Of a stretch of DNA of 64,000 nucleotides, positions 14,398 through 40,402 are shown piece after piece (the stretch's first letter is position 1; each line of letters begins with the position of its first letter). Under the pieces are notes generated by a model that was not told where the DNA came from, did no database searches, and saw only the letters and a program-made list of their open reading frames with translations. The stretch is from assembly GCA_948144175.1 (NCBI GenBank), contig CANXME010002068.1, forward strand, positions 1,116,001 through 1,180,000, read 5' to 3'. A program made the translations under genes and the position numbers. This DNA is from Closterium sp. NIES-65. Its lineage: Eukaryota > Streptophyta > Zygnematophyceae > Desmidiales > Closteriaceae.

Positions 14398-15000
14398 GTG
14401 TAACTGGTTCCCGTCTGTAGCAAAAAAAGAAAGGAGATTTCCCTGTGGCCGCATGTGCCGCGTTGTTGTAAGCGAACTCTAGGGTCGCTAACTGTAGATC
14501 CCAGTGGCTGACGTCATATTTACGAGCTGTGTGCAGTAAATATTCAAACACTTGATTCAATCGCGTAGTCTGTCCGCCAGTCTGGGGGTGGTACGCTGAA
14601 GACATTGCAAGTTTTGTCCCCAACAATCCCATGAGTTCCCTCTGGAACTTACTAGTGAATTCTGGGTCTCTATCTGAGATGAGTGTAGCGGGGATGCCGT
14701 AGATGGTGATGACGCAGTTAAAGAAGAGGCAAGCAGCTGCTTCAGCTGTAGCCGTGGCATTGGTCGGGATGAAATGTCCCATTTTAAAGAACTTGTCGAT
14801 CACCATGACTATAGCGTCATGCCCTTGTGAGGTTGAAGGAAGCTAAGTGATGAAGTCTAGGCTGATGACTTGTCATGGCTGCTCCGGTACAGGTAGAGGT
14901 TGAAGTAACCTTGATTTTTCCTGATTGCTACTCTTCATCCACTAGCACGTGTCGCATGAGGTGATGAACTACTGCACGTCTGTTGTCATACGGGGCCAGT
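14398..15000 (-). pseudogene. Gypsy-A integrase
   Basis: The minus frame covers MVIDKFFKMGHFIPTNATAT, LISDRDPEFTSKFQREL and SSAYHPQTGGQTTRLNQ. The second catalytic aspartate (SDRDPEF) is present. The canonical glutamate of the GQTER motif is replaced: the sequence reads GQTTR, which should abolish strand transfer. The reading ends in YRREPVTLS and runs into Copia-3. Upstream (14810-15000) similarity continues but the frame is interrupted by TAA at about 14840. Confidence 0.85.
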
Positions 15001-15059
15001 AGTTTTACTTTGCTATCTCTGCTAATGTCTTGTTGCTCCCAAACATTCCTTAAATCCTT

Positions 15060-15647
15060 TTATATAACCAAGTATTTCTCCCTCTGTAACATCTTCTGTT
15101 TCTGTGCTGTAGCGATCTCTGTGTCCACTGAGTACCCATGTTGGAATAGACCCTTAAGCAGAGGGTTCATCCCATCGAGCTGGACGCCTGCTACATGACT
15201 GGAGCGGCTCAACACGTGTGCTTTGTTATGTAGCCCGTGCTTGTAGGCGACGCCGTAATGGAAGTGAGTCTCAAGGAAGTCCACCCACCGCAGCTGACAT
15301 CGTGAGAGAGTAGGCTCTGACTTCAGGTATATAAGACTGCAGTGGTCAGTGTAGACTGTAATCTTGGCTCCCTGTAGGTAGCTCCTCCACACTTTGAAGG
15401 TTGTGACTATCGCTCATGCTTCCTTGTCATGGATTGGGTAGTTTTGTTCAGCCCTGTGTAGCTTCTTACTAAGGTAGGTGATGAGCTGCAAACCACATCC
15501 GTGATCCTGCATCAATGCTGCTCCGACTGCCTGGTCACTAGCGTATGCTTCCACAATGTAATCTCTGTCTGGATCCGGTAAGATGAGTACTGGTGCTGTA
15601 GTCAGTGCTATCAGTAGCTGCTCCATGGCTTGATGATGAGGAGTATC
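15060..15647 (-). pseudogene. Gypsy-A RNase H
   Basis: Two frame segments, 15414-15626 and 15060-15392, give IVEAYASDQAVGAALMQ, LSKKLHRAEQNYPIHDKEA and ITVYTDHCSLIYL. The first catalytic aspartate, normally in a TDAS motif, is a tyrosine here (AYAS). A TGA between the two segments interrupts the chain. Confidence 0.85.
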
Positions 15648-16519
15648 CTATTTATAGGGCGTATCCTTTTTCAGTAAGTTCGTCACTAGCGCTGCTATCT
15701 TAGCGTACTGTGGCACGAACCTGTTGTAGTAGTTGGCAAAGCTTGGGAACTGCTGCAACTCCTTCACATTCTCCGGTACTTTCCACTTCTTGACGACTTT
15801 GATTTTCCGTGGGTCCACGTGTACGCCCTCGGCACGCAACATGTGCCCGAGAAATTGCACCTTTTTTAGGGCGAAGTCACTCTTCGATAGCTTCATGTAG
15901 AACTTATTCTCTCGTAGAATCCCAAAGACTTTCCGTAGATGCTCCTCGTGCTCCTTCGTGTTCTTGGAGTAGATGAGAATGTCGTCCAAGTACACTACCA
16001 CGCATTCGTCCAGCAGGGGCCGTAGGATGTGATTCATCTCTGCCTGGAACGACGCTGGTGCGCTGTAAGTATTTGTAGGAGGCGTATTTGGTACAAGACA
16101 TCTTGTGTATCGAGTTGTCTGCCATCTTGATCTGCCAGTAACCCAACCGTAGGTCTAGCTTAAAAAAAACCGTTGCTCCACGCAGTTGGTCTAGAAGATC
16201 ATTTGTGTGCGGTATGGGGTATTTGTTCTTGACGGATTGTTTGTTCAATGCCCGGTAGTTGATGCACATCCGTGAACTACCGTCCGGTTTTGGAGTGAAG
16301 AGAACGCATGCACCATAGGGAGAGGTGGATGGGCGGATCAGTTGTTTGTTTGGTAGATACTCTATCTGCTTCTTTATGTCTGTCAGTCTGGTCGGACTAA
16401 GGCGGTGTGGTGCATGTGATACGGGTTTGGCACTTGGTTCCTCCACCATCTTGTGCTCGTGGGTTCGTGCTGGAGGTACTCCTGCAGGTAGGTTGTCTCG
16501 CATGATATCTTTGTACTGC
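15648..16519 (-). pseudogene. Gypsy-A reverse transcriptase
   Basis: From the S1 boundary the frame runs through QYKDIMRDNLPAGVPP, INYRALNKQSVKNKYPIP and FFKLDLRLGYWQIKM. A frameshift near 16060 follows, then YLDDILIYSKNTKEHEEHL with an intact catalytic YLDD, and FLGHMLRAEGVHVDPRKI. A TAG at about 15648 ends this segment just before RNase H. RT residues look largely conserved, so decay is moderate. Confidence 0.88.
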
Positions 16520-16524
16520 TCCAA

Positions 16525-17605
16525 TGTCAACGGGAGTGTTGATAGGCCCCGTCCACGCTTGGGCGGAGCCGACCTGGTGGTCGGATGTGCGGGGGTTGCA
16601 GCCGACCTGCAGCAGTGGGCACGTGGGCCGCTACAAGGGCGCCAAGCTGGAGGGCGCCTGGCCGGAGGGCGCCGAGCAGGAGGATGCCGTCCTGGACGCC
16701 TGGTTGGCGTTCTGGACGCCTGGACGGCGTCCTGGGAAGCTGGACGCCGAGCTGGGCGTCGCCACGACTACCCGGGCGCCTGGTCGACGCCGTGGGCGCC
16801 TGCACGGCGTCCTGGAAGGCCAGACGCCGACCTAGGCGTCTGCACGGCGTCCTAGGAGCCTGGGACGCCGCCCTGGGCGTCTGCACGGCGTCCTGGGGGC
16901 CCGGACGCCAACCTGGGCGTCTTGGGGTGCCCGGACACCGACCTGGGCGTTTGGACGCCGACCTGGGGGTTCGGAAGGCATCCTGGGCGCCTGGACGACA
17001 GATTGGGGACACTGGGCATTGGTGGCTGGCTGCGGACTGTGCTGGTTGACCAAGCGTGGTTGCCCGGTCGACCGGAATACCCGGGCGACGTGCGCGAGTG
17101 TCGCCAAGGTGGAGTCTGCGAGGCCGACCTCGGGGGTGGTATCCCGAGGTCAACGTGACTGGTGGGCATAGTCGCTGGCGTGGAGTGTGCCAGGCGTCTG
17201 CACTGTGCACGTCAGAGGAAAGTGCGCACCAACCAGCTGCGCGCACCTGCGAAGCAGGTGCACCGTTGTCCTGCGGGTGCAACGCTGTGCAGCCGACTTG
17301 CTGCAGCGCTGGCACACCGTGGACTTGCAACGTTGGCGAACCGCTACTCTGCAATGCTGGAGCGGTGCGAGCGCTGCTGCGCTGGAGGTCGACCAGCAGC
17401 CTAGCTAGCACTGATGTAGTCTGTGATGCCAATGTTGTTGCTATCATTATTGTCATGTTTTCCTAGTGAAACTCTTGCCAATTCTCCCCGTGAACTAGCA
17501 AGCAGCGTGAACAAACGTAAACGACTAAGTGAACGAACGCAGAGATCACACGAGCACCCGTGCCTAGCCCGTAGTCTAGCTCCCGTTGCAGCAGTTATCT
17601 CCGCA
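16525..17605 (+). repeat. S1: 1081-bp solo LTR inserted in Gypsy-A
   Basis: The insertion starts TGTCAACGGGAG and ends TTATCTCCGCA and is flanked by a perfect TSD, TCCAA (16520-16524 and 17606-17610). It interrupts the gypsy frame between VQEVLDA-type and EQYKDIM-type sequence, contiguous in Gypsy-B. There is no PBS, polypurine tract or coding domain, so I read it as a solo LTR. Orientation is tentatively plus, judged from TG...CA ends and an AT-rich 3' part. Tandem GC-rich units with GACGCCTGGACGGCGTCCTGG-like cores fill 16680-17000. Confidence 0.75.
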
Positions 17606-18144
17606 TCCAACACCTCTTGTACTATTGGAGGTTGCTCCAAGTTCGGCTTCCTCCTCTATTGCGTCCATAACCAGTGCTAAGAAACCTGTGTTACTCTCTT
17701 TCACCATCCGTTTCAACCGTGCATGTGCCGTTTCAGGAACTTCCCTTGTATCCATCCAGCTTTGCAACTAGACACGTTTCCCGTTCTTGTAGATGCGCGC
17801 CTTCCGGTTGTCCCACTCAATCTCGAGGTTGAACCGCTTCAAGAAATCTCGCCCCACGATGAAATCTAGTCCCTTAATGTTCGTGATCAACAACGTCGGC
17901 TTCTACCTCAACGCACCAATGTGTAGCTGCAGTGATGCTTCGCCATGGATGGGAAGATTCGTACCGTCCACCATCGTTGCCGTGAGTTGGGTCTCCTCCA
18001 AGGACTCACCAATTTTCCCCAATGTCCCACGGTCGCACAGCGAGTGGGACGCACTGCGAGTGGGACGCACCACTATCTACCCTTGCCTGAAGGCATCGTC
18101 CTTTGCAGATCACCTCGAGCAGTTGTAGTTGTTGCCGCTCCAAG
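17606..18144 (-). pseudogene. Gypsy-A protease and protease-RT spacer
   Basis: Reading the minus strand from 18144, CKGRCLQARVDSGASHS shows the retropepsin DSGAS active site. A 16-bp near-perfect duplication (TCCCACTCGC followed by AGTGCG or TGTGCG) and a stop follow directly. Further down, VPETAHARLKRMVKESNTGF and LALVMDAIEEEAELGA correspond to the spacer leading into RT, seen intact in Gypsy-B. The chain stops at S1. Confidence 0.8.
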
Positions 18145-18249
18145 CGTTAACGGGAATGGAGTGTTGGCCCCGCTCTTGCTTGGGCAACGCCAACGTCTTG
18201 GTCAGATGTACGGGAGAAGGAGCCGGCCGTTCACGGTGAGGGAGCTGCT
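18145..18249 (+). repeat. S2, left fragment of a 0.9-kb solo LTR
   Basis: This piece aligns with the start of S1 (AACGGGA, then GTGTTG, GGCCCCG, GCTTGGGC, GATGT and CGGG in the same order). The left flank CCAAG (18140-18144) nearly matches CCGAG after the right fragment (40218-40222). The first base is C rather than T. The LINE interrupts S2 at 18249. Confidence 0.65.
18236..18249. repeat. Left TSD of the LINE
   Basis: GTGAGGGAGCTGCT, matching 39398-39411 at 13 of 14 positions. It fixes the LINE 5' end at 18250. Confidence 0.85.
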
Positions 18250-18303
18250 GATGCCAGTTGGACCACACTAATCCACCCAACCAAGGACCAACAACCAACA
18301 ACC

Positions 18304-19559
18304 ATGACAGCCTCAAGACCGCCATGGCGGTTCCCAGGAACTTTGACAAACTCAATGTCCCTCGATTTCTTGCCAGTTGTTGAATTAGAGCCTATATTCA
18401 TACTCCTTAAGACGTTAGGAATCCGTTGGTACACTTTTAATGTTCATACAGTGAACATTGACCATACAGCCCTTTTGTCAGGCACTCTCGAGGCTCTCTT
18501 TGAGAATGGAGTTTCCAGGGCTTTTGAAGTTACCAAGGATAATGGCAAGCCCAAAACTGTCAACAACCTTCTCGGAGCGCTTTCTCAACCTTTCATTCAC
18601 TATATTTTCAAGCATTGGTGGCGTGAAAGACACAAGTTAGGTCTGGAGCCTTCGGTGCTCAGCTCTATTTAGCGGCCTGCTTTTGCAGATCAGCTTCCTT
18701 CCTCAGTTCATCATCACACCATGGCCCCCCCTTGAAAGGTCTCCTGCTATGGTCGCTCCTGCTGCTGGTCTCCATGGGAAGAAGCTGGCGGATGCGCATT
18801 TCGAGCCTGTCATGCCGAAGACTTTGTTTAATGGTGTGACGGCTCCTCATGGTGAAAAGGAGATCACGGATTTGACGGCGCGTACGTCGGCGCTGCACAT
18901 CAATGACCCGCCAATCGACAAGGTTACGAATGTCAATGACAAGAAAAAACCGATAGGCAGTGATACCTTTGCTCCGAGCGGGCTGGATCAGAGGATGAAA
19001 AAGGACCAAGATGCAGCGGATGACGGAGGTTACCTAAGCGACGACCCTGATGAGTGCCAGGATCCGGTGAAGCTCAACGAGATTGTTGCGCAGGCGGGTG
19101 TCACCATCACGCTGCTGGTTCCTTTCGCCTGGCATAAGGAGATCGCGCGCATCAACACCATTAATTACCTGCTGTTGCTGTGGGGAAAGCACATGTCGGA
19201 GAATGTGAAGATGACCACGAGGTGTCAGCAACTTACGGTGACATTTCTCTCCGAGCAGCATTTCGGCTGGATCGAAGTGGTTTTCCTGCTGGATGCTGAC
19301 GCAAACTTCATAAGAAGCCGGGAGATCGAGCATTACACGACGAGCAACAAAAAGCTCACCTTTGGCTGGCAGCATACAGAGAACAAGGAGTACCTGAAGG
19401 AGTGTGTTGCTCACCCAGAGGTGATCGAGGTGCTTCTCAGGGGGGTCCCAGCCGTGATCTCACCAACCATGATTAAGAAGAACCTGGTTTCGGCGCTCTT
19501 GCTGAAGCGGGGCCGGGCGGCTTTCCGCGATGGGCTGGCGTTCCACCGTGTGTTGGATC
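18304..19559 (+). pseudogene. LINE ORF1, 5' part
   Basis: The first ATG after the C/A-rich leader opens a 122-codon frame (to 18672). After a frameshift near 18660 it continues in another frame from about 18683 to the Copia-4 junction. I recognise no named domain. Visible blocks are SRAFEVTKDNGKPKTVNNLL, an acidic DDGGYLSDDPDECQDP segment, and LLRGVPAVISPTMIKKNLV, which could be part of an RNA-binding fold. Plant L1 ORF1 proteins are usually RNA-binding, but that role here is inferred from position. The chain resumes in frame at 34147 beyond Copia-4. Confidence 0.65.
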
Positions 19560-19652
19560 TGTGAAATAACGAAGAATGATTGAACTAGGAAAGTGTGAGA
19601 CACAAATATGAAACCATAGAAACCTGTACCCCTTAGTGTCTACCCCACTAGA

Positions 19653-19795
19653 TAACGAGAAGTGAGAATGGATGAATAAACTATGAAACAGTTGGGTACA
19701 AGTACTAACCCTAATTGGGTTGTGCCCCTTATGGGCTACCCCACTACAGCCTACACAAATGTATAAGCTATAATGTTCTGACACACCCCCATAGG
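19653..19795 (-). repeat. 3' LTR and polypurine tract of Copia-5
   Basis: LTR 19653-19783, polypurine tract 19784-19795 (CCTATGGGGGTG on the minus strand). The LTR has the shared core with CTACCCCACTACAGCC on the plus strand. Confidence 0.9.
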
Positions 19796-19982
19796 CAAAG
19801 TGGGGGAGAACAAGCGGTCACAAGACCAGTCAAGCAAAGCAAAGCAAGCTCAGGGTGGATCACAAAGTTACCACACAGTCCGAGCACAAGAGTAAGGCCA
19901 CAAGGCCAGTTCACATGCAAGATCATATATATAAAGGTAAACAAGCAAGTGCAGGTATAGAAAGAGTACAGTACAAACAAGA

Positions 19983-21494
19983 TCAAGAAGTGAGCAAGTG
20001 AGGCCAGGTAGGCACAAGACCTAGCAAAGTACAGAAGCGCTGAAGATCACAAGGCGGAAGGGCCTTGGTGAATATATCAGCAGTGTTGGCCTCAGAGGCC
20101 ACGTAGGAGAGGCGGAGCTGACCCAACTGCTGCAGCTCACGAGCCAGGAAGTAGCGGAGAGCAATGTGCTTCGTTCTGTGCTCCAGTCTGTGCTCCCGAC
20201 ACAAGGCCAGCATGGCCTTGTTGTCTACGTACAGAACTGGAGGAGAACGAGGCGGCTCTCCTAGGTCAGTCAGCAGGTAGGTGAGCCAGCGTAGCTCCTC
20301 TGCAGCCATGGCCATCTCAGCCTCACAGCTGGAGCTGAGAACAGAAGACGAGCGCGTAGACTGCCACGAAACAGAGCCGGAGCCAAGGCTGAAGGTGTAA
20401 CCCTGTGACGACCGCTGCAAAGCCTGGTCATCAGCCCAAGAAGCGTCAGCGTGACCTGTGAGGACTACTCGACGTCGCCATCCAAGCACTAGCCCCATGC
20501 CCGACGTACTGCACACGTAGCGCAACACCCTCTTCGCTGCAGCCATGTGCTCTGGTCGGTGTCTCCTAGGAGCAACATAGCGTGCCAAGATGCTAAGAGG
20601 GTATGCAAGGTCAGGTCGTGTGCAGGTCATCAGGTACATGAGGCAGCCAACAAGCTCTGGGTACGGGCCACTCGACTCTACGGACTCATCCGAAGGCAGA
20701 GCTGAGAGCGAGTGGCGAGTCGACAGAGGAGTGGCCTGAGGCGAGGAGTACGTGAAGCCGAAGCGCTGAAGGACCTGCTGCACCATGTGTGACTGAGTCA
20801 GCGTAATGGTGCGCTGTGCTCTGTTCCGGGTGATCTGCAAGCCAAGGTAGCTGCGCAGTTCACCCAGGTCTGTGCACGTGTGTCTGTTCTGCAGCTCGGA
20901 CTTCATGTAGGCGAGTCCAGCAGTGTCAGCAGTGGCAAAGACCAAGTCGTCGACGTACACGAGGATGTAGAACGGCGGCAGAGAGGTGTCGGTGCGCAGA
21001 AACAGCGACGGGTCGGCTGTAGAAGGAGCAAACCCAAGAGCCACAAGTGTAGTCCTCAATGTGTCGTGCCACTCACGGGGCGCCTGGCGGAGACCGTAGA
21101 CTGGCCGCCGGAGGCTCCACTGGATACCAGGAGAAAAAGACCCAGTGAAGCCACGAGGGCGGCGCAGCCAGATCTCCTCGTGCAGGCTGCCCTGCAGGAA
21201 AGCTGTGCTGAAATCAAGAGAGTGAAGCTCGTAGTCGCGCTGAGCGGCTATGTGCAGCAGCACCCGAAGAGTGGTCATCTTCGGGGTGGGAGAGAAGGTC
21301 TGAAAGTAGTCAACTCCCTGCCGCTGACTGAAGCCTGGAGCCACGTAACGCGCCTTGAAGACAGGCGGAGAACCCCGCGGCCGCTTCACCCTAAAAATCC
21401 ACATGCCACTGACGATGTTCGCCCCATGTGGGGGAACCTCGTCGACGTAGGTGCCTGTGGACTTCCAAGAAGCCATCTCTGCGTCCATGGTTGA
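19983..21494 (-). pseudogene. Copia-5 reverse transcriptase and RNase H, one open frame of about 500 codons
   Basis: First in-frame ATG at 21488 ([10 protein letters not shown]). The chain includes [49 protein letters not shown] (catalytic YVDD), HADASWADD, SCEAEM, YVDNKAM and SEANTADIFTKAL, ending at PHLLTS. Four codons are missing after SCEAE (the IYAGA motif is shortened). It is a fragment of the polyprotein: a TAG at 21495-21497, where other copies have CAG, separates it from Gag-integrase, so it would not be made as part of the normal product. The enzyme domains themselves look intact. Confidence 0.88.
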
Positions 21495-22905
21495 CTACCA
21501 CTGAGAGGAGTAGGGACCCTTGATCGCCTCAGCGTACAATCGAGGAGTCAGGATGTCTGGTGCATACGGGTGTCCCTCAGGGGCAATCAACGTGGATACG
21601 AGATGGGGCAAAGCGGCCTCAAAGCACTGTAACTCCTCCTGCCTGTCCTCAAGGACGTCCGTGCTAAGAGCAGACTCACCCCCGACGGACGGAGGACAGA
21701 CAGACTCAGACTCAGCAACGAGACTAGCAGCGTAGTCTAGACGACAGCGAGCAGCGAAGTCGACAACCTCAGCAACTAGAGCAGACGCAGCAGTGGACTC
21801 AAAGGAAGGGTGAGTGACAACAGTAGCAAGAAGGCGCGTGATCGAAGGACTAGCAGCACAAAGGGAGTCAGACTCCGGGTCAGCAAGAGAAGGAAGAGAG
21901 GACTCTGGAGGAGACGGCAACGGGACACGCAGAGGAGCAGTGGAAGGACGCAGTGCCATCTGGTGCGTGCCGGGGACCGCAGGAGGACGCGGACGCGCAG
22001 CACGACGACTAGTGCGAGCAGCACGAACAGGCGACGCAGGACGAGACGCTCGCTCATGACGCTCAGCAAGACCTCCAGTAGGACAAGTGCACGGAGAAGG
22101 AGCAGGCAGCGGGGAGGCAGGTTGTAACTAGGACTGCGACTGGACAGGCTGTGGACACTCTAAGGGAGGAGCAGGACCAGTAGAGGGCGGGAGACCAAGA
22201 ACCTGCTCTAGGAGTGGAACGAAGTACGGCCTCGGCCGCTCAGCGCCTCAAGAACCAGCAAGGATGGCACCATTGTCCCCAGCGGCAGCACCATCGCCAG
22301 CAGCACCTCCAGCTCCAACAGCGCCAGCTCCAGCACCCTCAGAAGCACCAGCGCCAGCAGCACCGCCAGCGCCAACACCCCTAGCAACTCTAGCTTCAGC
22401 AGCACCAACTCCAGTAGGACCGTCAGCACCAGTAGCCTCAGCAGCACCCCCAGATGCACAAGCACCAGTAGAAACACCAGCGCCAACACCCCCAGCAGCT
22501 CCACCTCCAGCAGCACCAGCACCGACCGCAGCTCTAGCAGGACCAACTCCAGTAGCTCCAACAGCACCCCCAGACTCAGCAGCACGTCTCCAACGGCGGG
22601 CGAACCACTCGCGCAGCTCCTGTGGAGAGAGCGGCTCCCGCCTCGACAAAGCACCGCCGGCGGCCACACGAGCAGACCCAGCACCCCCAGGCTCCGCACC
22701 CCCACGCTGCGCACCTCCAGGCTCAGCACCCCCAGGCTCAACACCCCCAGACTCCGCACCCCCAGGCTCAGCACCCCCAGACTCCGCACCCCCAGACTCC
22801 GCACCCCCAGACTCAGCACCCCCAAACCCGGCACCCGCAGTCTCAGCACCTCTAGCAGCACCAGAGTCAACAGCAACCTCGACAGGCTCGATTGCGTCTA
22901 CCTAG
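21495..22905 (-). pseudogene. Copia-5 linker region
   Basis: From 21959 the frame reads [20 protein letters not shown] through SYAEAIKGPYSSQW to the TAG at 21495. Upstream, the Gly/Ala-rich part (22667-22248) and the pentapeptide array (22870-22680; [21 protein letters not shown]) are each open but in shifted frames. The PYFVPLLEQVLG block near 22200-22240 is readable with a local frameshift. Confidence 0.78.
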
Positions 22906-23985
22906 GACACACCTGACGGGGTAGGACCCTGAGAGGGAAGGGGGTCTACCTGGGGAGGACCTGTTGCAAGGAAGAGCGGTGGCGGGGCCGGGGGCGCAGT
23001 GCGGTAGGGGAAGAGACGGTAGTAAGGCACCGACTCGTCAAAAGTGACGTCCTGGGAGGACAGAACACGGTGCTAGGTGGGGTGGTAAAACTGCCACCCA
23101 CGCGCGTCAGGGGGGAAGCCAAGGAAGACGCAAGGAACAGCACGGGGGAACAGCTTGTCCGCAGATAAGTCGCGGACAAACGCCCGAGATCCCCAGACCC
23201 GAAACGCAGACGCATCGCCAACCTTCCCTGTCCACCGCAAGGCGGGGGAGGTCTCTGGCAAGAAGACCCGGGGCTGAAGGTTGAGCTGATGCGCGGGGTA
23301 CTGCAAACGGCCACAGAAAATGGGGGGCAGCCGCATGCATCATGGACGTACGAGCGACGTCCATGACCATGCCAATGCGGCGCTCAGCAATCCCATTTTG
23401 CTGTGGTGAGTCCGGAAGCGTGAAGGTCTGGCGGATGCCCTGTGCACGACAGAAGGCTCCCAGACGGGCAGAGGAAAACACCCCGCCTCTGTCCGAGTGC
23501 AGACGCAGAACAAGAAAGTCCGAGCCGAAACTCTCCCAGAGCTCGAGACGAGCTGCGCGGATCAAGTCGATCAACACCTCAGTGACGTCACCCTTGCTGC
23601 GCAAGGGGAAGACTGTGGTGTAACGCGAGTAGTCGTCAACGACCAGCAGAAAGTACCGCTCTCGCCCCTGCCCACTGACGCGGGCTGGGCCCCACACGTC
23701 CATGTGGAGAGTCTGCAGCGGAGCCTCTGTCGGAGGAAACTCGGAGGAGTGAGGGGCGGAGCGTTGTCGCCCCTCAACGCAGGGGACGCAGGGCGGGCCA
23801 AGCCCTCGAGGAAGGGGAGGGAGAGACCAAGGGAGACCAGAGACAAGGACACGGGAGGCCATGCCTTGGAGACGAGGCAAGGAGGGGTGACCAAGGCGGT
23901 GGTGCCAAAGGAGAGTATGGTGGGACAGCACACGACACGAGCAGGGGGCAGACTTAGGACCACACCTGGACGCCGCAGCAAACAC
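22906..23985 (-). pseudogene. Copia-5 integrase and GAG-pre-integrase
   Basis: Open from 23985 to about 23300: [19 protein letters not shown] and CVPCVEGRQ (zinc site), HMDVWGP (Asp), HSDRGGV (Asp; the following residue is Val instead of Glu), [16 protein letters not shown] (Glu). All three catalytic residues are present. The frame shifts at FAVPRAS (about 23305, related copies read FAVRYAAHQ) and continues with [20 protein letters not shown] in the other frame to 23073. Confidence 0.85.
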
Positions 23986-24003
23986 CTGACTTGACGCAGC
24001 TAC

Positions 24004-24858
24004 CTAGGCAGACTCAGCAGCAGGAGGAGACTCAGTAGTAAGGGTGTACAGGCTCGACCCTGGCCGATGAGTGAACGTGGCCAAGTGTCGGCCTGTCCGA
24101 GCACACGTGCAGTGGGTCACGCGCTGACTCGCAGGAGTGAACTGGTCATCCCCTCGATCCTGTAGGTCCGCTCCACTCACCAAGTTCGTAGAGAACGAGG
24201 GGAGGTAGAGACCAGACAGGGTGCCAGAGGGGGCTGCCGGGCACGGAAGGACAGGACCCCCAGAGGGGTCTGCCATAGAGACTGCAACTGACCGACTGAG
24301 CGGCGTAAGAGTGGTGCGGTCTCGAAAGAAGGAGCGGGACGCACCCGAGTCCAGGGTGAAGGTGTGGAAGGCCTGAGCCGACGTAGTACCTGAGAGAGCA
24401 GACTCACCAGCACCTGGGGCGGCAGACGCACTGGCACGTGGGGCAGCAGACGCACTGGCACGTGGGGCAGCAGACACACTAGTACCTAGAGCAGCAGCCT
24501 CACCAGCACCTAGAGCAGCAGCCTCAATGCCCGGGTCAGGCGGTACACACACGTAAAAGTCACCCGCAACACTAGTATCAACAGCATACATGGCAGCAAG
24601 GATAGCATCAAAGTCAAGATCAAAGGTAGCAACCCCGGCCTTGGCCAGATCTCCCCAGCGAGGGATCTCTGACGCCTTAGAGAACTGGCGAAGCCACGAG
24701 TCCGTCAGGCAACCAAAGCAGCGCTGGGTGGAGTGCGGGCCTCCGCACTGCTCACGAGCGCGGTCGCCGGTACGGAGGACGTAAGAGCAGGGACCAAAAC
24801 CCCAACCGCGCTGACGCGGAGTGTACCACTCATGAAGCAGTTGAGGGGACAGGGTCAC
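24004..24858 (-). pseudogene. Copia-5 knuckle and aspartic protease, open frame of about 284 codons
   Basis: The chain begins in the C-terminal part of Gag with LLHEWYTPRQRG and the wide knuckle [15 protein letters not shown] followed by GGPHSTQRC. A DAILAAMYAVDTSVAGDFYV segment and Ala-rich ASAAPRASASAAPG repeats precede the protease ([20 protein letters not shown], catalytic Asp present). It ends at ESPPAAESA with TAG, just upstream of the pre-integrase region. The repeat region seems to vary in unit number between copies. Confidence 0.85.
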
Positions 24859-24879
24859 ACCACTCCGCTGCTGCTGCTG

Positions 24880-26987: not shown

Positions 26988-27118
26988 TAACGAGAGGTGA
27001 GAATGGATGAATGAACTATGAAACAGTTGGGTACAAGTACTAACCCTAATTGGGCTGTACCCCTTATGGGCTACCCCACTACAACCCACACAAATGTATA
27101 AGCTGTAATGTTCTGACA
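26988..27118 (-). repeat. 5' LTR of Copia-5
   Basis: 131 bp. Starts TAACGAGAGGTGAG and ends GTTCTGACA on the plus strand; followed by TSD CTAGA. Confidence 0.92.
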
Positions 27119-27123
27119 CTAGA

Positions 27124-30300: not shown

Positions 30301-31080
30301 CTGAGGGGGAAGGGGGTCTACCGGGGGAGGACCTGGCCCGCGGAAGAGCGCCGGCGGGAGGAGGGGGGCAGTGCGGTGGGGGAAGAGACGGTAGTAAGGA
30401 ACCGACTCGTCAAACACAGCGCGAGGTGGGGTGGTAATACTGCCAACCAGGCGCGCCAGGGGGGAAGCCAAGGAAGACGCAGGGAACAGCGCGGGGGGAA
30501 AGCTTGTCCGCAGACAAGTCGCGGACAAAAGCTCGAGATCCCCAGACACGGAATGCAGACACATCCCCAACCTTCCCCGTCCACCGCAGAGTAGGGGAGG
30601 TCTCCGGCAAGGAGACCCGGGGCTGAAGGTTGATCTGATGCGCTGCGTACCGAACCGCAAATGGCCACTGAAAATGGGGAGCAGCCGCATGGATCATGGA
30701 CTTACGAGCGACGTCCATGACCATGCCAATGCGGCGCTCAGCAATCCCATTTTGCTGTGGAGAGGCCGGAAGCGTGAAGGTCTGTCGGATGCCCTGTGCA
30801 CGACAGAAAGCTCCCAGAAGGGCAGAGGAAAACTCCCCAGCTCTGTCAGAGTGCAGACGCAGAACAGGAAAGTCCGAGCCGAAACTCTCTCTGAGCTAGA
30901 GACGAGCTGCGCGGATCCAGTCGATCAACACCTCAGTGATGTCACCCTTGCTGCGCAAGGGGAAGACTGTGGTGTAATGCTAGTAGTCGTCAACCACCAG
31001 CAGGAAGTAACGCTCGTGACCCTGTCCACCGACGCTGGCAGGGCCCCACACATCCAGGTGAAGCGTCAGCAGTAGAGCCT
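30301..31080 (-). pseudogene. Copia-4 integrase
   Basis: Recognisable blocks are LDVWGP (first catalytic Asp, near 31045), HSDRAGE-like (second Asp, near 30850), [16 protein letters not shown] (catalytic Glu, near 30740) and [24 protein letters not shown] at 30896-30898 replaces CAG, and indels shift the frame near 30500 and 30960. The element lacks the VLSSQDVTF block seen in Copia-6, a short deletion near 30415. Confidence 0.82.
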
Positions 31081-31908
31081 GTGTGAATGGAAACTCAGAG
31101 GAGTGAGGAGCGGGGCGCTGCCGCCCCTGGACGCAGGGAACGCAGGTAGGGGCAGGCCCCGGAGGAAGAGGAGGGAGGGACCAGGGGAGACCAAAGACAA
31201 AAACATAGGAGGCCATGCCTCGGAGACGAGGCAGGGAGGGGTGGCCAAGGCGGTGGTGCCAGAGGAGAGTCTGGTGGGACAGGAGATGACACGAGCAGGG
31301 AGCAGACTCAAGACCAGACCTGGACGCTGCAGCAAACACCTGACTCGACGCAACTACCTGACCAGACTCAGCAACCGGAGGAGACTCAGTAGTCAGTGTG
31401 TACAGGCTCGACCCCGGCCGACGGGTAAACGTGGCCAAGTGTCGGCTCGTCCAAGCACACGTGGAGTGGGTCACTCGCTGACTCGCAGGAGTGAACTGGT
31501 CAACCCCCCCGTCTTGTATGTCAGCACCACTCACAGGTTCGTAAAGAACGAGGGGAGGTAAAGACCAGACAGGGTGCCAGAAGGGGCCGCCGGACACGGT
31601 AAGACAGTGGAGAAGTGGGCAAGGACAGGACCCCCAGAGGGGTCTGCCAGCGAGACTGCAACCGGCCGACGAAGCGGCGTGAGTGTGGTGCGGTCTCGGG
31701 AAAGTGTGCAAAGCCTGAGCCGTCGTGGTAGCTGAGAGAGCAGACTCACCAGCACCTGGGGCAGCAGACACACGAGCACCTGGAGCAGCAGTTGACTAGC
31801 TCCTAGAGTAGCAGCCTCACCAGCACCTAGAACAGCAGCCTCAATGCCCGGGTCAGGCCGAACACACAGGTAAGAGTCACCCTCATCACTAGTAGACACA
31901 ACATACAT
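31081..31908 (-). pseudogene. Copia-4 protease and GAG-pre-integrase
   Basis: [19 protein letters not shown] and CVPCVQGRQR mark the pre-integrase zinc region. The protease part is damaged: the expected [10 protein letters not shown] is missing by a small deletion near 31700 (reading jumps from HTF or CTL to [20 protein letters not shown]), so the catalytic Asp is lost. Downstream [18 protein letters not shown] is intact. Confidence 0.8.
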
Positions 31909-33226
31909 GGTAGCAAGAATAGCATCATAATCAAGATCAACGATAGCAACCCCCGACCTAAGCAGCTCGCCCCAGCAAGGGATCTCAGTGGTGTCAGGGA
32001 ACTGGAGACGCCAAGCGTCTGTGAGGTGGCCGAAGCAGGGCTGGGTGGTGTGCGGGCCACCGCACGGCTCACCAGTGCGGTCTCCAGAATGCAGGTCGTA
32101 GGCACAGGGACTAGCACCCCCACCCCGCTGGCGCGCAGCGTACCACTGACGAAGCTGCTGGGGGGGTGGGGTCTCACGAGTGCGCTGCTGCTGCTGGTGC
32201 TGACCACCACCGAAGCCGCCCTGCTACACAGAGCCACCCCGACCAGCTCCACTATCGCCGCCGCCACCGCCGCCTCCTCCGCTCCCACCGCCACTGCCGC
32301 CGCCGCGTCCGCCTCCACCGCCGCCACTGAAGCCCTCACCCCCGCCACTCCTACTGCCACCCCCACCCCCTCCGCCGCCTCCACCGCCACCTCCACCGCC
32401 ACCTCCACCGCCCCCGCCAGCTCCTCCAGCGCCCTTGCCCCCCTTGCCCTTGCCGTTGCGGCGTCTCCTGCTAGGGGCAGACGCAGCTCCGACCGACTCG
32501 GTGCCAAAGAGGTCGACCGCAGCAGCAGAGGCAACAGAGGGCAAAAGCGGGGAGGGGGGGCACCCCTCAAAGAAGGGGGCACGAGGGTCACCACGAGAGG
32601 CTCCTACAGCGACTATACTCTTCTCAGCTGCCAGGAGGCGCTCCTCAAGGAGGTCAACGGTGAGTGTGGTGGGGCAAACAGAGAGGAAGTGGTCCCTGAC
32701 CGAGCGAAGGGAGTCAGGGAGCCAGGTGACTAGGTAGTAGAAGGTGATGTACATGGGGGGGGGGGTTCTTGGCGCAGAACTCAGCAGGAAGCGCAGTGCG
32801 GTAGCGGGTGTCACTAGTGCGAAGGTGCGTAATGAGGTCATCGACTGTGGGAAAGGCGGCGAGGTCAGGGAACAGGTACGGCAGCATGAAGCGACTAAGG
32901 GCAGCAGTGGCAGGGGAAGAGTAGCGTGCAACTACAGCGTCGTACAAGGTCTTAGCACTCTTGTACTGACAAAAGTGTGCACGCTCAGTGGACGGCAGGT
33001 GACTACGCACATGAAGACGGGCAGCAGCATCGCGTGTGGCCCACTGTGAGTGAACAGTACTCTCAGTATCGGCAGCAGGGGCAGCAGAGGCGCCAGACGT
33101 GAGATTGAACTGTGAGAGACCATCTTTTCTATCGCACTGCAGGAAAAGCTGCAGATCATCGACCTAGACCTCAAAGTCAACAGCCCGACCCTCAGCATCA
33201 AAGGTGAGAACATTGGGGGTAGCCAT
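31909..33226 (-). pseudogene. Copia-4 Gag with knuckle region
   Basis: The Gag ATG is at 33224-33226 ([20 protein letters not shown]), the same start as in Copia-6. A TAG at 33164-33166 replaces a Trp codon, and an expanded C-run (32755-32765 as G on plus) shifts the frame at the NPPPMYIT block. Downstream, [14 protein letters not shown], a Gly-rich tract and a decayed knuckle (CAYDLHSGDRTGEPCGGPHT) are visible; the last Cys position near 32040 reads CFGH-like in another frame. Confidence 0.8.
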
Positions 33227-34016
33227 GACAGCAGCAGTGGCAGGCTAGCAGCAGCATTAGTTGGCTAGCAGCAGCAGCAGCAGTAGCAGGCAAGCAGCAG
33301 GAGGGGCGCGGCTCGGTGGTGCTCTTACCAGGGGCGGGTGGGTAGAGTTCCGCGAGCGGTGGGGCAAGGCCGAGGTGCATCGGGAGGAACAGGGCCGCGA
33401 CTGGGCGGCAGAGGAGGGCCGCGCCTCGGCTGCAGGGTAGGGCCGGGACGGCCGTGGCTGCTGTCATGGCAGGAGCGGCGGCGGCTGTCACGGCAGCAGC
33501 GTCGGTGGCGATCGGCCGTGGAGGAAGCACCAGCGGCAGCAGGCGCGACGGCAGCTGCTGCTGGGGCGGCGACGACGGAGCGGCAGGGCCGTGAAGAGCT
33601 GGGGAGGGGCCGCTAAGGGGCCGCGGAAGGGCCGTGAAGGAGCCGCGAAGGGCCGCGAAGGGCCGCGGAGGGGCCGGGAAGGGGCCGCGAAGGGCGGCGA
33701 AGGGGCCAAGAAGGGGCCGCGAGGGGCCGCGAAGGGGCCGCGAGGGGCCGCGAAGGGGCCGCGAAGGGCCGTGAGAGGGGCCACGAAGGGCTGCGAAGAG
33801 GCCGCGAAGGGGCCGCGAAGGGCCGTGAGAGGGGCCGCGAAGGGGCCTTAAGAGGGCGCGACGGGCCGCTAAGGGCAGGGGACGCGACGGGAGGGCAGGC
33901 GCACGGGGCGCGACTAGGGCAGGCGCGAAGCGCGCTCCGGGCAGGTAAGGAAAAAAAAAATCGTTGTAGTGGTGGGCCCTAGGAAACGTTCCCACTAGGG
34001 AACCTGCTCTATACCA
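33227..34016 (-). repeat. Copia-4 leader repeats and PBS
   Basis: About 780 bp between PBS and Gag. The part from 33590 to 33860 consists of GGGGCCGCGAAGGG-type units (plus strand) repeated about twenty times with variants GGGCCGTGA and GGGCCGCTAA. The PBS at 34006-34016 reads TGGTATAGAGC on the minus strand, one base short of the consensus. Confidence 0.85.
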
Positions 34017-34141
34017 TGTGAAATATCGAGGAATGATTGAACTAGGAAAGTGTGTGATACAAATATGAAACCCTAGAAACCTGTACCCATCCATGTCTAC
34101 CCCACTAGAGCCTACAAACACTATGTCACATATATCCGACA
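34017..34141 (-). repeat. 5' LTR of Copia-4
   Basis: 125 bp, TGTCGGATATATG start and ATATTTCACA end in element orientation, followed on the plus strand by the TSD GGATC. Confidence 0.92.
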
Positions 34142-34146
34142 GGATC

Positions 34147-34319
34147 TGGTGTCAGGGTCGGATACGGACAAGATAAAGGGGTTGGTGTTCCGGCACCAGG
34201 GGGATAAGTATAAGTGGTGGCACAAGGTCACTGATCGCGTCCACGTAATTGAGCTGCTGGTGTCTTTTGCTGCGCTGACCTGCGATTTTTGCAGCGGAAT
34301 GCATGACATGTTTCCATGA
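34147..34319 (+). pseudogene. LINE ORF1, 3' part with a probable truncated zinc knuckle
   Basis: Removing Copia-4 and one TSD copy makes this segment continuous and in frame with 19559. It encodes a basic segment (GDKYKWWHKVTDRVHV) and ends CDFCSGMHDMFP before TGA at 34317-34319. The final Cys of a C-X2-C-X3-H-X4-C knuckle would fall exactly on the stop codon, suggesting a TGC or TGT to TGA change at the end. The 620 bases up to ORF2 hold no further recognisable domain. Confidence 0.6.
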
Positions 34320-34942
34320 TGATGACGTTAAGGAGAGGCAGAACAATATTGGAAATTGGAGTCTGATGCTGCAGCGTGCTCATGAGATCATGGTAACACT
34401 CTCGGATGCTACTCTTACCTTGTTTTTTCAGGTGGCTGCAGCAGAGAGCCTCCAAGCTGACTTCTGTACGACCCTTCCCCCAGGCAGCGGCTTCCATGAA
34501 GCTCTCATCGGCGCTGAAGACCGTGCTGGCAAATCCTGCGATCGCTTTGGTGTCAACGGGAGGAGCTCGGGAGGAGTGATTATGTGCTCAGGAGGGCTAC
34601 GGGAAGGCTCAAGGGTCCAGCTTCGAGAAGGCAGTGGAGCATGTCCAGTCAGTCTGCCATGGCACTGGTCTACTCAAAACAAGTGCGGCTACGTGCTCGA
34701 GCAAGGGGAAGCTGAATCTCACACGACTCCGGAAGGAATGTGGAATGTGATCGGCCGGCCGTGCGGGTGGCTGAGATGTTAGTCACCTGCGAGAACTTCG
34801 AAGGAGAAGGCCGGAGAAGGGTGTATGAGGATTCCAGGCGTGATGCAGGTTTCATCAGTAGTAGTGATGGTTGTGGTGTTCGCGTATTGTATCATCTCTA
34901 ATAAAGCCCGTGGATGCAAGGGGCTAGCTGTCGAGTCGATCA

Positions 34943-37016
34943 ATGGGTAACACACCTTTTCTCACCATCTGCGGGGTCAACGTAAACCGCCTCAGAAGCA
35001 GTGGAAAACGTACCAAACACAGAAGGTGGCTACAAACAACAGCAAACATAATGGTACTCTTAGACACAAGGCTAAAGGAGGACCACCATTTCTCGAAAGA
35101 GATTAGACCAAAAGCTTGGGCTGCGGTCGGACCGAGCCAGGCGGCTGGAGGTGTGGCGGTACTGTCCTTCGGCAGGCACATCCGCTTCTCGGACGTTCTA
35201 CCTGATGCAACCGGGAGGCTTTTGGGGGTGACAGTGGAAGGAGGAGAGGAGCCTTTTAGACTGGTTACGGCGTATCTCCCGGCGCAGGCCTGCAACAGGG
35301 CGAAGTTTCACAGGGAACATCGAGTACCTTTTGTGCAAGCACAGGTGCAGTCGAAACACCTGGTGGTGGTGGGGGATCTCAATATGGTGGCTGACCCGGA
35401 CCTGGATAAGTCGTTTGGAGCAGGGCCGGGAAGGGAAAATCAACGGTTCCTCGATGCCTGGCAGGCGCATGATCTCCGAGACACCTTCCGAGCTCTGCCC
35501 CACGGACAAAGAGTACACTTTTAAAGATACAGCCACGCAATTGAAGATGCGCATCAACAGGGCTTTGGTATCCACTCACTGATAGGGAATCTGGAGGGAG
35601 CTTAACATGTGGGGGTGCCGAGGAACCTGACAGACCACCGGTTTGCCGTCAAGATAAGACTGAAGTTTGTATCGGCACTCGCGTACGGTCCGGGCCTCTG
35701 GAGGTTCCATGCGACAAGGGGGAAAAAGAGAGGGGTGAGGAAATTCATACAAGTGGTAGTAGAGGCGCTTGGCAAAGCAGGGAGAAGCTCCCTGGAGTGC
35801 GTGCTGCCCAAGCTCACGACGGGGCTACGGTCACATGAAAAAGAGGAGAGGAAAAGGGTGATGGCAACGCAAACTGCACCTCACGGAGGAGGTGGAGCGG
35901 TTAAGGCACATGGTCATGGGCGGTCCGACGGATGAAAGAACAAAAGCGCTACTGCTCACCAAGGAGGAGCAACTGGAGGCTTACCGGGAAAATGAGCAAG
36001 AGAGGCTGGAAGTCTTCGCACGCCGCATGGCGGAGCTGTAGGGGGAGATCCCGTCACCATACTTGTCGGGTCAGGTGAAGATGAGGAAGGAACGCACGCT
36101 AATAGAGGAGGTGTAGTTCAAAGGGGTGTGCCATCGGGGATCCCAAGCAGTACTTTCGGCGGCGTCGGAGAACTTCGCAGAATCTTTCAAGGCGGAAGCC
36201 GCGACGTCGCAGCCACACAGTCTCGAGTGCATGGTTGACAGGGTGATGCCAGCGGAGGCGGTGGACAGGCTCAAAGGCCCATGGACAGAAGCGGAGGTCA
36301 AGGCGGCGTTGGAGGGGCTCCCGAAGGGGAAGTCGCCAGGGCAAGACGGTTTGCCAGCGGAACTCTTTGTGGCCCACCTGGACCTGCTGGCGGGGTGTTT
36401 CATGAGTTTCGTAAAAAAAGTTCGAATTGACGGGGCGGTTGCCAGACTCGTTGACAACGGTGGTCATGGTTTTAATGCACAAGAATAGGGAGAAGGGTCT
36501 GCTAACGAATTACAGACCAATCACACTTCTCACCACAGTGTACAAGGACCTGGTGAAGGTTCTAGCGAACAGACTCAAGCAAGAGCTGCATCACATTATC
36601 TCAAAGGAACAGCACGGCTTCATACCGGGACGCAGTCTGGCGGATGCGGTGGCGGTGGTGGCTGATGCGATAGAAGCGGCGGATAATGACGGTGAGGTCT
36701 GGTATCTCCTGCTCGTCGATTTCCAGAAGGCCTACGACATGGTGCCGTGCCCTTTCCTTTTCAGAACGCTAGAGAAGCTTGGTCTGCCTACGCAGTTCGT
36801 CAGTTGGGCGGAAGGTCTGCATCGGGGATCAGGGACAAGAATGGTTATAAACGGCTGCATAGGGGAGAAGGTGGAAATGCAAAGGGGAGTACGACAGGGG
36901 TGACCCTTAGCGCCCTACCTTTTCCTCTACGCACTGGAGCCGCTATGCGCGGAGATAAGGAGACGTGGCCTGGGGGTCAAGGCAGACGGGGGTGACGCAG
37001 TGTCATAGGGTACGCA
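34943..37016 (+). pseudogene. LINE ORF2: endonuclease and reverse transcriptase, first part
   Basis: ORF2 starts at ATG 34943. The apurinic/apyrimidinic-type endonuclease is seen as LTICGVNVNRLRS, ANIMVLLDTRLKED and HLVVVGDLNMVADP, to about 35520, where a frameshift occurs. RT blocks follow in several frames: GKSPGQDGLPAELF (36330), NYRPITLLTTVYKDLVKVL (36510), QHGFIPGRSLADAV (36610), LLVDFQKAYDMV (36715, first catalytic aspartate) and GVRQG followed by a stop where a conserved Cys/Ser would be (36900). S3 cuts the chain at the YADD box. Confidence 0.88.
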
Positions 37017-37221
37017 TGTCAGAATATGTTATTTGTCTAGCCTGCAATGGGGTACTCAATAGTGAGTACAGCCCTTTAGGGTTTCCTAATTGTACCAACC
37101 TGCCTACTAGTGCAATCATCCATTCTGTTTCTATCATTCTCGATCCTGCTTGGCACAACCTTCTACTCTCTCTGTGGCCTAGGCTACTAAGCCTAGGCCC
37201 TACTCCTTGTTGATACTGACA
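37017..37221 (+). repeat. S3: 205-bp solo LTR inside the LINE reverse transcriptase
   Basis: Begins TGTCAGAATATG and ends GATACTGACA, with a perfect TSD ACGCA (37012-37016 and 37222-37226). It contains the perfect 24-base hairpin with arms GGCCTAGGCT and AGCCTAGGCC (37176-37199) also found in both TRIM LTRs, plus neighbouring CATTCTCGAT and TTGGCACAA stretches in the same order. It therefore belongs to a relative of the TRIM-like family. It falls between the Y and DD codons of the RT YADD motif. Confidence 0.88.
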
Positions 37222-37226
37222 ACGCA

Positions 37227-39259
37227 GATGACACTTCGTTGATCCTCAAGGGTGCAGACCAGCTGCAGGAGGCGGCAGCATCTTTGGATTGGTTCGGGGA
37301 GTTGTCCGGTCTGCGCATCAATCGCGACAAGTCAACAGTTATGGCTTTGCGAAGGAATAAAGGTAGGACGCCGTTGCCAGGAGTTACCTTCAAGTGGGCA
37401 GAAGATGGAGTCCCCGAACGTCTGTTGGGAATATGGGTGACTCCGAACGGGGATGCGGCACCGTCCTGGGAAAAGGCTTGGGAGAGGGGGAAGAATGAGC
37501 TAATCAAATGGGAGAGTCAGCATCTGCTAATAGCGTCAAGGGTGACGGTGATTAACAGCTACATCATGCCTATACTGCTGTTTCAAGCATAGATTTACCC
37601 GCCGCCGGAGGAGTTCTAGGCGAAAATACGGAAAACGTGCGATAATTACGTCTCAAAAGGAGAAGTGACGGCGGAGAAGATCTTCTTTCTCTAGAGTGGG
37701 GAGTTGGCTCCGTTGCCGAAGAAGAAGGGGGGTTTGGGGCTGATAGACCCTAAGGAGCGGCTCGACAGTCTGGCGATACGTCAGGTGGGAAAGTTCTTCA
37801 CGGAACAAGATGCCACCAAATAGTGGCTGATGGAGAAGGCAGCGGCGATGCCGCAAGGCGTAGGGACACTCTTCGCTCATAAGTCTGCTGGCAAGCACTG
37901 GGAGAAGGGGAGTCAGAGGTGGAAGGCGACCGCGGAGGTTTTTTGGGAGTCCTCGTTCGCTGAGCTTTCGGCGCCGTCTAATTGTCAGGAGGCAGAACGA
38001 GCGTTGCTATGTTTCAGCCGGCGCATCATGTACCGCGGGGGGGGGGGGGGGGAGGGAACCTTTCGAGAACCAACAAGGCATGGCAGTAATCCTGAAAACC
38101 AGGCTGGGAGACCTACTCACAACCAAGGAGGATGGGAGCAGAGACATCAAGGATGTCAAAACAATGGCAATGGAATTTGGGAGCGTGGTGCTGGCTAGGT
38201 GGGCGAAAAGAGCTTTCGAAGCGTCCCCGGCGGAGTGGAGAGCGATGCTGAGGGCGCCTAGAGCATCGGAGCGGTTGCAGCGGCGGCGAAGGTGGTGAGA
38301 ACAGTCCTATCATGCCCGCAGGAGTTTCTGTACTGGACAGTGAGAGGGGCTAAAGAAGTAGTGGAAACGGATCATCTTAGCTGCTCGGATGGCCTTAGCC
38401 TGGTGGCACCATAGAGACCGTACGCGGTCGGTTTCCCTGCCAAGAGGGTGGAACCGGTGGTGGTCAAGGGGGACACGGTGCTCGGGGCGATGGGTGAACC
38501 GAGGGTCAAGCTGTGCCAAACCTTGTTGGTGGGGGAGAATATGAGGCCGGTGGCGCCTAAGGAGATTAGGAGGGTTCTTGCGGAGCCGGCCGGGACATCG
38601 AGACGAAGGCACGTGTGGACGAGGAGCTAGGCAGGAAAATTGATTGGAAGGCGGTGAGGGAGAGGAGGGAATCCCTGGCAATACCCTACAGAGCGAGAGA
38701 CGTGGTGTTTAGAATGATCAGCAAGAACCTGCAGGTGGGGGGGAGGCTGGTTTTCCTGGGCCCCAGGGGGAGCTGTCCACACTGCGGTGGCCCAGAAACC
38801 CTGGACCGCTGCATGATCACCTGCCCTGTCATCCAGCTGGTGATTGGCGCACTACTGAGATCGCCGGCGGATCAGACGAGGTCGCTCGGCGACATGCTCT
38901 TCTCAGAGGGGGCCACGAAAACCGGTTTTTCGGGGGCAACGTTGACAGCGGTGACGATGCGCAGAATCTGGTTGGCCAGGGTGGATGCGGTGTTCCGGAA
39001 GGAGAGGTTCCAACGGATAAAGGTGGCAAGGGCGGCAATCTACGACTTTATGCGTCACACAAGGCTGTACAGGGCCGGAAAGCTGAGGAAGGCAACGAAG
39101 AATAGTGTGCAAGGGCAGCCACGGGACCCGTGGGGCGGCCTGGTAGGAGATGGGAGAACGGCAATCGCGAGGATAAGCGAGGCATGGGAACAGGCCATGT
39201 GGAAGGTGGATTTCCTCTCCATTTGGCAAAACCCCAAGACCTTCCACCGTCCACCGTAG
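37227..39259 (+). pseudogene. LINE ORF2: RT end and C-terminal zinc region
   Basis: Resumes with DDTSLILKG (second half of the catalytic YADD) and LSGLRINRDKSTVMALRRN, then continues with frameshifts and stops (for example 37590, 37692, 38296, 38627). The last part is open from about 38615 to the TAG at 39257-39259 and contains CPHCGGPETLDRCMITCP, a C-X2-C-type motif typical of the zinc-binding RVT tail of plant L1 elements. A G16 run at 38037-38052 lies in a disrupted stretch. Confidence 0.85.
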
Positions 39260-39366
39260 ACGCAGGTAGGGGGGTGGCACCTGAGCCTCGGCGGGGGTAT
39301 AGCGTTTCCCTCTAGAATCCAGTTACGACTGTGAATGTATATGCATTTTTATAGTGTACTTGCGTT

Positions 39367-39411
39367 CAATAAAATATATATATATATAAAAAAAAAAGTG
39401 AGGGAGTTGCT
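39367..39411 (+). repeat. LINE 3' end: AATAAA-like signal, TA repeat, poly(A) and right TSD
   Basis: CAATAAAATATATATATA runs into A10 (39388-39397) and then GTGAGGGAGTTGCT (39398-39411), the right copy of the TSD. This is the expected signature of target-primed reverse transcription. Confidence 0.85.
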
Positions 39412-40217
39412 CAACGGGCTCCGTCGAGCTACAGGGAATCACTGTGGTGTTGCCGTCGACCAGGGAGTTTGACGACCATCTTTGGTGGGGCAAGACGACA
39501 AAATGGTCATCGACTTGCACGGGGATGGAGCAGTCCGTCGACCTGACATGTGAATGGCAGTCGACGAGGGGAGCTCGGCTTCAGCAGCCGACACTGCTGG
39601 TCGACGAAGGGGTCCGTCGACCAAGGTGTAACTCGACGGGAGCTGTGGTCGACCAGAGGCACTTGGTGGTTGACCAGAGCACTTGGTGGTCAACTAGGTC
39701 GACCAGGTAACCTGCTCACGTGATGAAGGCGACTTCGGGTTGATATCTTGAAGTCGAGGTGGCTCGACAGGCGCAGACAACAGCCAACAGATGCGCAAAG
39801 ATGCAAGCCGGGCCAATTGTCTGCGCGCACCTGCGAGTGCGCGCACTACTGTCTTTTACAAGGCAACACTGGACACCCGCTCTGGTGCAGCGTTGGCACA
39901 CCGTCGACCTGCTGTGTTGGCAGGTCGCCTTTCTGCAGTGCTGGCATAGCTCCTCTACGCAATGCTAGCAGGCGGTCGACCAAGCAGTGCTGGCGGCCGA
40001 CCAGGCTAGCTGCAGAGTTGCTAGGTGCCTGATGTAGTCATTGTTGTCATTGCTTGTTTAATCATTCTGTAATGCAATCTTTGCCTAATGAAACTCTTGC
40101 CGATTTCTCCCGTAAACGTGCAAGCTCTAAGGAACTAAGCAAAGCTACGATCACTCCTAGTAGTTTGTGCCAACCCCCCCGTAGTCTAGCTCACTGCCTT
40201 GTAGAGTGACCTCCGCA
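39412..40217 (+). repeat. S2, right fragment of the same solo LTR
   Basis: Resumes directly after the LINE and its TSD, ending GACCTCCGCA like S1. It contains many GTCGACC motifs (about 39460-39710 and 39970-40010) in place of the GACGCC units of S1, so the two LTRs share ends but not their repetitive middle. The 3' part (GCCTAATGAAACTCTTGCCG near 40083) is conserved between S1 and S2. Confidence 0.65.
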
Positions 40218-40402
40218 CCGAGTAGCCATAAATGGCCTTGCTTATAGGATCATAGGGTACATAGAATATATCATCCCTAGGTCATGTGCCCGAAGCTACT
40301 GACTCAATATCACTTTTCACCTGGGTAGGGTTAGAAGGTTTTATCCGAGGCTTGGATAACTTTTCTAAAGCCTGGAACCTTCCCCTAAGCCTTTCCTCTA
40401 GG
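40218..40402 (-). pseudogene. Gypsy-A gag-protease spacer, end piece
   Basis: Similar over most of its length to 50105-50290 in Gypsy-B (shared TTGCTTATA(G)GATCATAGGG, ATCATCCCTAG, GGGTAGGGTT and CTGGAACCTTCCC). Lies beyond S2 and completes the spacer of Gypsy-A. At about 40402 it changes abruptly into integrase-proximal sequence of Gypsy-B. Confidence 0.7.

Follow-up and report, generated by a model that had tools for sequence, protein, structure and literature searches.

We report here a stack of retroelements nested at least five deep, accompanied by two side insertions (S1 and S3), in a 64,000-nucleotide stretch of DNA from Closterium sp. NIES-65 that was analysed as a whole and is called the window below. 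A gypsy copy (gypsy-A) received a solo-LTR-like insert (S2), S2 received a LINE, the LINE received a copia element (Copia-4), and Copia-4 received a second copia element (Copia-5); this order of insertion is secure. The five-level nest had been proposed by a sequence-only reading of the same DNA, and it is confirmed: each of the four insertions has its target site duplication (TSD), and two of them are also supported by homology, namely through the LTR partner of Copia-4 and the S2 site in a second gypsy copy, gypsy-B. The explanation of the region as a pile of successive retrotransposon insertions is, in our judgement, close to certain. Element types were assigned from protein domains and homology, and the borders are as follows, in order along the window.

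4801-6271: 1.47-kb element with 238-bp LTRs (4801-5038/6034-6271, 3 differences) and a PBS-like GCTCTGATACCA beside the right LTR.
14398..18139, minus strand: gypsy-A, left portion, with integrase, reverse transcriptase and further gypsy sequence; resumes at 40223-~40400.
16525..17605, 1081 bp, no strand assigned: S1, solo-LTR-like, TG...CA, in gypsy-A; TSD TCCAA at 16520-16524/17606-17610.
18145..18235, no strand assigned: S2, left part, solo-LTR-like, in gypsy-A; resumes at 39398-40217; 911 bp without the LINE.
18236..18249, plus strand: LINE TSD, left copy GTGAGGGAGCTGCT; right copy GTGAGGGAGTTGCT at 39398-39411; 13/14 bases equal.
18250..19559, plus strand: LINE, 5' part, with the ORF1 open frame at 18641-19564; resumes at 34147-37016 and 37227-39397.
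19560..34141, minus strand: Copia-4, own length 7111 bp, with RVT_2; TSD GGATC at 19555-19559/34142-34146.
19560-19652 plus 27124-27155 (left) and 34017-34141 (right), minus strand: LTRs of Copia-4, the left one split by Copia-5.
19653..27118, 7466 bp, minus strand: Copia-5, with RVT_2, in the left (3') LTR of Copia-4; LTRs at 19653-19783/26988-27118.
34147..37016, plus strand: LINE, middle part, with APE-type endonuclease (34928-35524) and reverse transcriptase (36415-36903).
37017..37221, 205 bp, no strand assigned: S3, copia-type solo LTR, TG...CA; TSD ACGCA at 37012-37016/37222-37226.
37227..39397, plus strand: LINE, 3' part, ending in AATAAA, a TA repeat and poly(A).
39412..40217, no strand assigned: S2, right part; the preceding 39398-39411 is the second copy of the LINE TSD.
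40223..40400, minus strand: gypsy-A, right portion, aligning to gypsy-B up to 50283 and adjoining gypsy-B near 40400.
40401..41758, resuming at 49297-~50283, minus strand: gypsy-B, second gypsy copy, split by Copia-6.
41759-49296: Copia-6, in gypsy-B, with LTRs identical over 131 bp (0/131); TSD TGTTT.
51929-59183, plus strand: Copia-7, with LTRs differing at 5/125; TSD ATATC.

The base of the stack, gypsy-A, contains on the minus strand an RVT_1 domain above the Pfam cut-off (16767-15648) and a weak rve match within 14842-14357 (E 0.0014, 19.3 bits versus a cut-off of 32.6). Taking this weak match into account, the reverse transcriptase (RT) precedes the integrase, the domain order of Ty3/gypsy elements, and the best PDB matches of the RT are Ty3 RT/RNase H (phmmer, 2.1e-18). 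Identity to gypsy-B is 75-79% over the matched pieces. Positions 14398 and 40402, previously given as the limits of the stack, find no support as element ends, with neither an LTR nor a TSD at either position in a comparison that used the copia and 238-bp LTRs only. The idea that gypsy-A ends naturally at 14398 was rejected as unsupported: LTR similarity near it did not stand out (best E 0.28) and no TSD was seen. Self-comparison of the window likewise gave no LTR pair for gypsy-A, which is treated here as a gypsy fragment. Near 40400 it passes straight into the integrase-side sequence of gypsy-B, whose sequence begins at the counterpart of 14959, and the join displays no LTR, TSD or clear microhomology.

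S2 is flanked by CCAAG (18140-18144) and CCGAG (40218-40222), equal in 4 of 5 bases. Gypsy-B is uninterrupted at this site, where it reads CTGAG; with one TSD copy kept and the exact borders applied, the alignment is gapless at the junction and identical in 271 of 355 columns. S1, an addition to the earlier reading, is also absent from gypsy-B, with 373 of 485 columns identical over the closed site and small balanced gaps at the junction. The two inserts match near both ends and in the same order (16526-16607 with 18146-18228, and 17214-17503 with 39799-40125), 465 of 868 aligned columns being identical overall, with a poor alignment over the 5' halves. As the base layer, the Ty3/gypsy copy took two solo-LTR-like inserts, apparently of one family, whose solo state, as that of S3, presumably arose through LTR-LTR recombination; which of S1 and S2 came first is not set by nesting.

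S1 and S2 could instead be small non-autonomous elements of some other type, complete in themselves, whose integration duplicates 5 bp. They are long (1081 and 911 bp), S1 contains GC-rich tandem repeats, the mutual resemblance is confined to parts of the inserts, and the window holds neither a further similar sequence at E 1e-3 nor a full-length element bearing the S1/S2 sequence as an LTR pair. Yet the TG...CA ends of S1 (CG...CA in S2) and the 5-bp TSDs fit LTRs, and we consider this alternative unlikely.

The LINE spans 18250-39397, measures 6351 bp without its inserts and is bordered on both sides by GTGAGGGAGYTGCT. The 14-bp TSD reported earlier at 18236 and 39398 is present, with one mismatch in 14 between its two copies. 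The RT matches Pfam RVT_1 (1e-20), and in PDB (phmmer) LINE-1 ORF2p (7.4e-16) ranks above R2-type chains; in this ranking of best hits the top chain, 8c8j, is labelled only RNA-directed DNA polymerase. The endonuclease falls below the Pfam cut-off for Exo_endo_phos (0.0076) and matches APE1 (3.9e-7) and L1 endonuclease (3.5e-6) in PDB (phmmer). An APE-type endonuclease together with an RT, a poly(A) end and a TSD longer than 10 bp are L1-clade characters, and an L1-like identity would best explain the LINE. Comparison of its RT with viral contigs and genome contigs gave no relative, in a search from which records of the source genome may be excluded. The L1-like LINE then entered S2, the 14-bp TSD and the poly(A) end being as expected of target-primed reverse transcription. 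At the position of the LINE the alignment between S1 and S2 is poor, and this step therefore rests on the TSD.

The LINE was also hit separately. S3, likewise an addition to the earlier reading, was noticed in a low-stringency comparison of ten regions with the window as an LTR similarity inside the LINE, and lies exactly between the YA and the DD of the YADD motif, the catalytic box of the RT. Its TG...CA ends, its TSD and its homology to the LTRs of full elements identify it as a solo LTR: identity is 66-73% over 95-109 columns with the LTRs of Copia-4 to -7, and 74% of 126 with the 238-bp LTR at 6034-6271. To the right of S3 alone, RVT_1 scores 16.3 bits (profile 154-193); once the junction is closed, the score rises to 25.5 bits (profile 149-193), which is below the cut-off of 29.6 bits, and the closed piece finds one PDB chain, an R2-type RT (E 0.052). 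The RVT_1 match across the closed junction is independent evidence of a LINE that was continuous at this site when S3 arrived. A copia-type LTR, now solo, landed in the RT catalytic box, and its order relative to Copia-4 is not set by nesting. Stops and one frame change lie in the LINE directly upstream of S3, so small-scale decay has affected this copy too. A near-palindrome, GGCCTAGGCTTAGTAGCCTAGGCC, is common to S3 and the 238-bp LTRs (4801-5038/6034-6271) and is absent from the LTRs of Copia-4 to -7.

Copia-4 sits in ORF1 of the LINE, which it hit as a full-length Ty1/copia element. As the sequence-only reading had claimed, its removal with one TSD copy joins ORF1 in frame, with 56 codons beyond the junction before stops. 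Frame retention by itself occurs in 1 of 3 cases by chance, and for ORF1 Pfam returned nothing at E 0.01, so that its continuity is a frame argument and supporting only. The insertion of Copia-4 into the LINE rests on the TSD and the ORF1 frame.

Both copia elements carry RVT_2 on the minus strand (Pfam, 5.5e-49 in Copia-5 and 8.1e-14 in Copia-4), which places them in Ty1/copia. The integrase-before-RT order is seen in their sister Copia-6 (rve 819-925, RVT_2 1593-1827), whose polyprotein pieces, in unchanged order, match both elements. Copia-4 and Copia-5 each possess an LTR pair, TG...CA ends and a 5-bp TSD, Copia-5 departing at one end. The split LTR of Copia-4 is the left one on the plus strand and the copia domains of both elements read on the minus strand, so the earlier description of the Copia-5 host as the 3' LTR of Copia-4 is right. 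Closed over Copia-5, whose TSD is CTAGA (19648-19652/27119-27123), this LTR aligns without gaps to the right LTR over 125 bases, 115 of which are identical. Over an RT region of 1.15 kb, the divergence between the two copia elements is 8.3%; Copia-5, of the same family, integrated last, into the 3' LTR of Copia-4. Both LTRs of Copia-5 (19653-19657, 26988-26992) start with TA on the plus strand, the 3' end being ...TA and not the CA of TG...CA; the 5-bp TSD nonetheless points to a normal integration. A primer site of tRNA-iMet-like type adjoins the copia LTRs and, together with the mix of elements, would fit the green lineage; a tRNA scan of the full 64 kb returned none. No relative of the copia RT was found among viral contigs, where records of the source genome may again be excluded.

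For S2, Copia-4 and Copia-5, the TSDs named earlier were found by a script at the element borders. Their chance rate was taken as the frequency of equally good matches when 400 x 400 offsets are tried about each border pair. It is 0.0016 for Copia-4, 0.0025 for Copia-5, 6e-6 for the LINE (one mismatch allowed, true site counted in) and 0.014 for S2 (one mismatch allowed), the weakest of the four. Given these rates, the S2 duplication alone would be weak, and the other three would not. How each element probably integrated is read from the length of its TSD and from its ends. Moreover, at the Copia-4 LTR and at the S2 site of gypsy-A, the restored hosts align continuously with copies inside the window, where a failure to do so would have spoken against the nest.

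Part of the interleaving might stem from rearrangement, by ectopic recombination or unequal exchange, or from a misassembly that confused similar copia copies. In favour of this, the window holds six or more copia copies of a single family, 91-95% identical in the compared RT region, and gypsy-A adjoins gypsy-B without LTR or TSD. Against it, a matching TSD and an LTR pair belong to each of Copia-4 and Copia-5, and a recombinant or chimeric join is not expected to yield both the CTAGA repeat and a gapless 125-bp LTR, which makes this account of the stack very improbable. The similar copia copies and the bare gypsy-A/gypsy-B join do indicate that some rearrangement probably happened in the region.

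The LTR differences that had been counted by eye, 10/125 for Copia-4 and 7/131 for Copia-5, are exact and free of gaps. They correspond to divergences of 8.0% (95% interval 3.9-14.2) and 5.3% (2.2-10.7), which agree numerically with the nesting order, as had been stated, but cannot confirm it (Fisher two-sided p = 0.46), and LTR divergence was rejected as an independent clock for this pair. Four of the ten differences in Copia-4 fall within 5 bp; the probability that Copia-4 is more diverged than Copia-5 is 0.80, and 0.54 if this cluster counts as one event. Among five LTR pairs that were compared, divergence is lowest in Copia-6, whose identical LTRs are separable from those of Copia-4 (p = 0.0006), Copia-5 (p = 0.014) and Copia-7 (p = 0.027); Copia-7 itself cannot be separated from either Copia-4 or Copia-5. 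Coding decay was also tried as a clock and was uninformative: stretches matching three Copia-6 polyprotein pieces contain 4 stops in Copia-4 and 7 in Copia-5, with several frame changes in each, counts that mix stops of the source lineage with later ones and point, if anywhere, against the nesting order. In a tree of the RT region of six copia copies, the terminal branches of Copia-4 (0.047) and Copia-5 (0.040) agree in direction with the nesting, and give no dating because they include time before insertion. Since neither LTR divergence nor coding stops discriminate, the order rests on nesting and TSDs. Absolute ages are not derivable, and the LINE, S1, S2 and gypsy-A are dated only as older than their contents. 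The relative dating of several families that had been anticipated amounts to one insertion per family at one locus. Among 4126 nested/original pairs from fifteen plant species, 25% (1042) are described as having nested LTRs more diverged than those of the host (PMC7251063).

Other elements surround the stack. In Copia-6, the integrase and RT domains, as well as a weak gag match, lie in an open frame of 1833 codons. Inward of the 5' LTR in Copia-4 to -7, the four copies in which both LTRs are present, lie GC-rich tandem-repeat arrays (26209-26875, 33580-33926, 48266-49066 and 52214-52875), often with units of 11 or 22 bases, such as AGGGGCCGCGA. Adjoining remains at 9891-11521 and 11597-12722, with partial LTRs, are apparently two more copia copies, perhaps nested. 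Two ORFs scanned in the 1.47-kb element (5111-5959, plus strand; 5357-6091, minus strand) lack Pfam matches at E 0.01; the element has no matching TSD in its flanks (AAGGT left, ATATA right) and is possibly a small non-autonomous LTR element. With regard to placement, among the at least six copia copies compared, one lies in an LTR of another and two more lie in the LINE and in a gypsy copy. This could mean that the copia family of Copia-4 and Copia-5 prefers other retroelements as targets, including its own LTRs, and so builds self-nesting islands, an idea that we hold to be quite improbable.

Nests of this kind are commonplace where genomes are rich in repeats, and the novelty of this one is low; the maize adh1 region, for instance, reportedly contains a cluster of nested LTR retrotransposons. 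Nested retrotransposons, same-family nesting and the deduction of order from nesting are established in published accounts (PMC2672092, PMC6911290, PMC7251063). In the plant clusters as presented in the cited passages of PMC6911290 and PMC7251063, split elements and TSDs likewise reveal sequential insertions, the order likewise follows from nesting, and same-family "autoinsertion" has its counterpart here in Copia-5 within Copia-4; unlike in those passages, a LINE and solo-LTR-like inserts alternate here with copia and gypsy elements. The LTR and the integrase domain are given there as two of the least frequent insertion targets (PMC6911290), and the target of Copia-5 is an LTR. Our reading shares the logic of REANNOTATE and TEnest as outlined in PMC2672092, which is to defragment elements, order them by nesting and bound ages by LTR divergence, but it relied on a script and TSDs without a repeat library.

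The stack opens no new question. At one locus it fixes securely the relative order of five retroelements, and it illustrates the limits of LTR divergence when LTRs are short, in that two elements of certain order are not separable.
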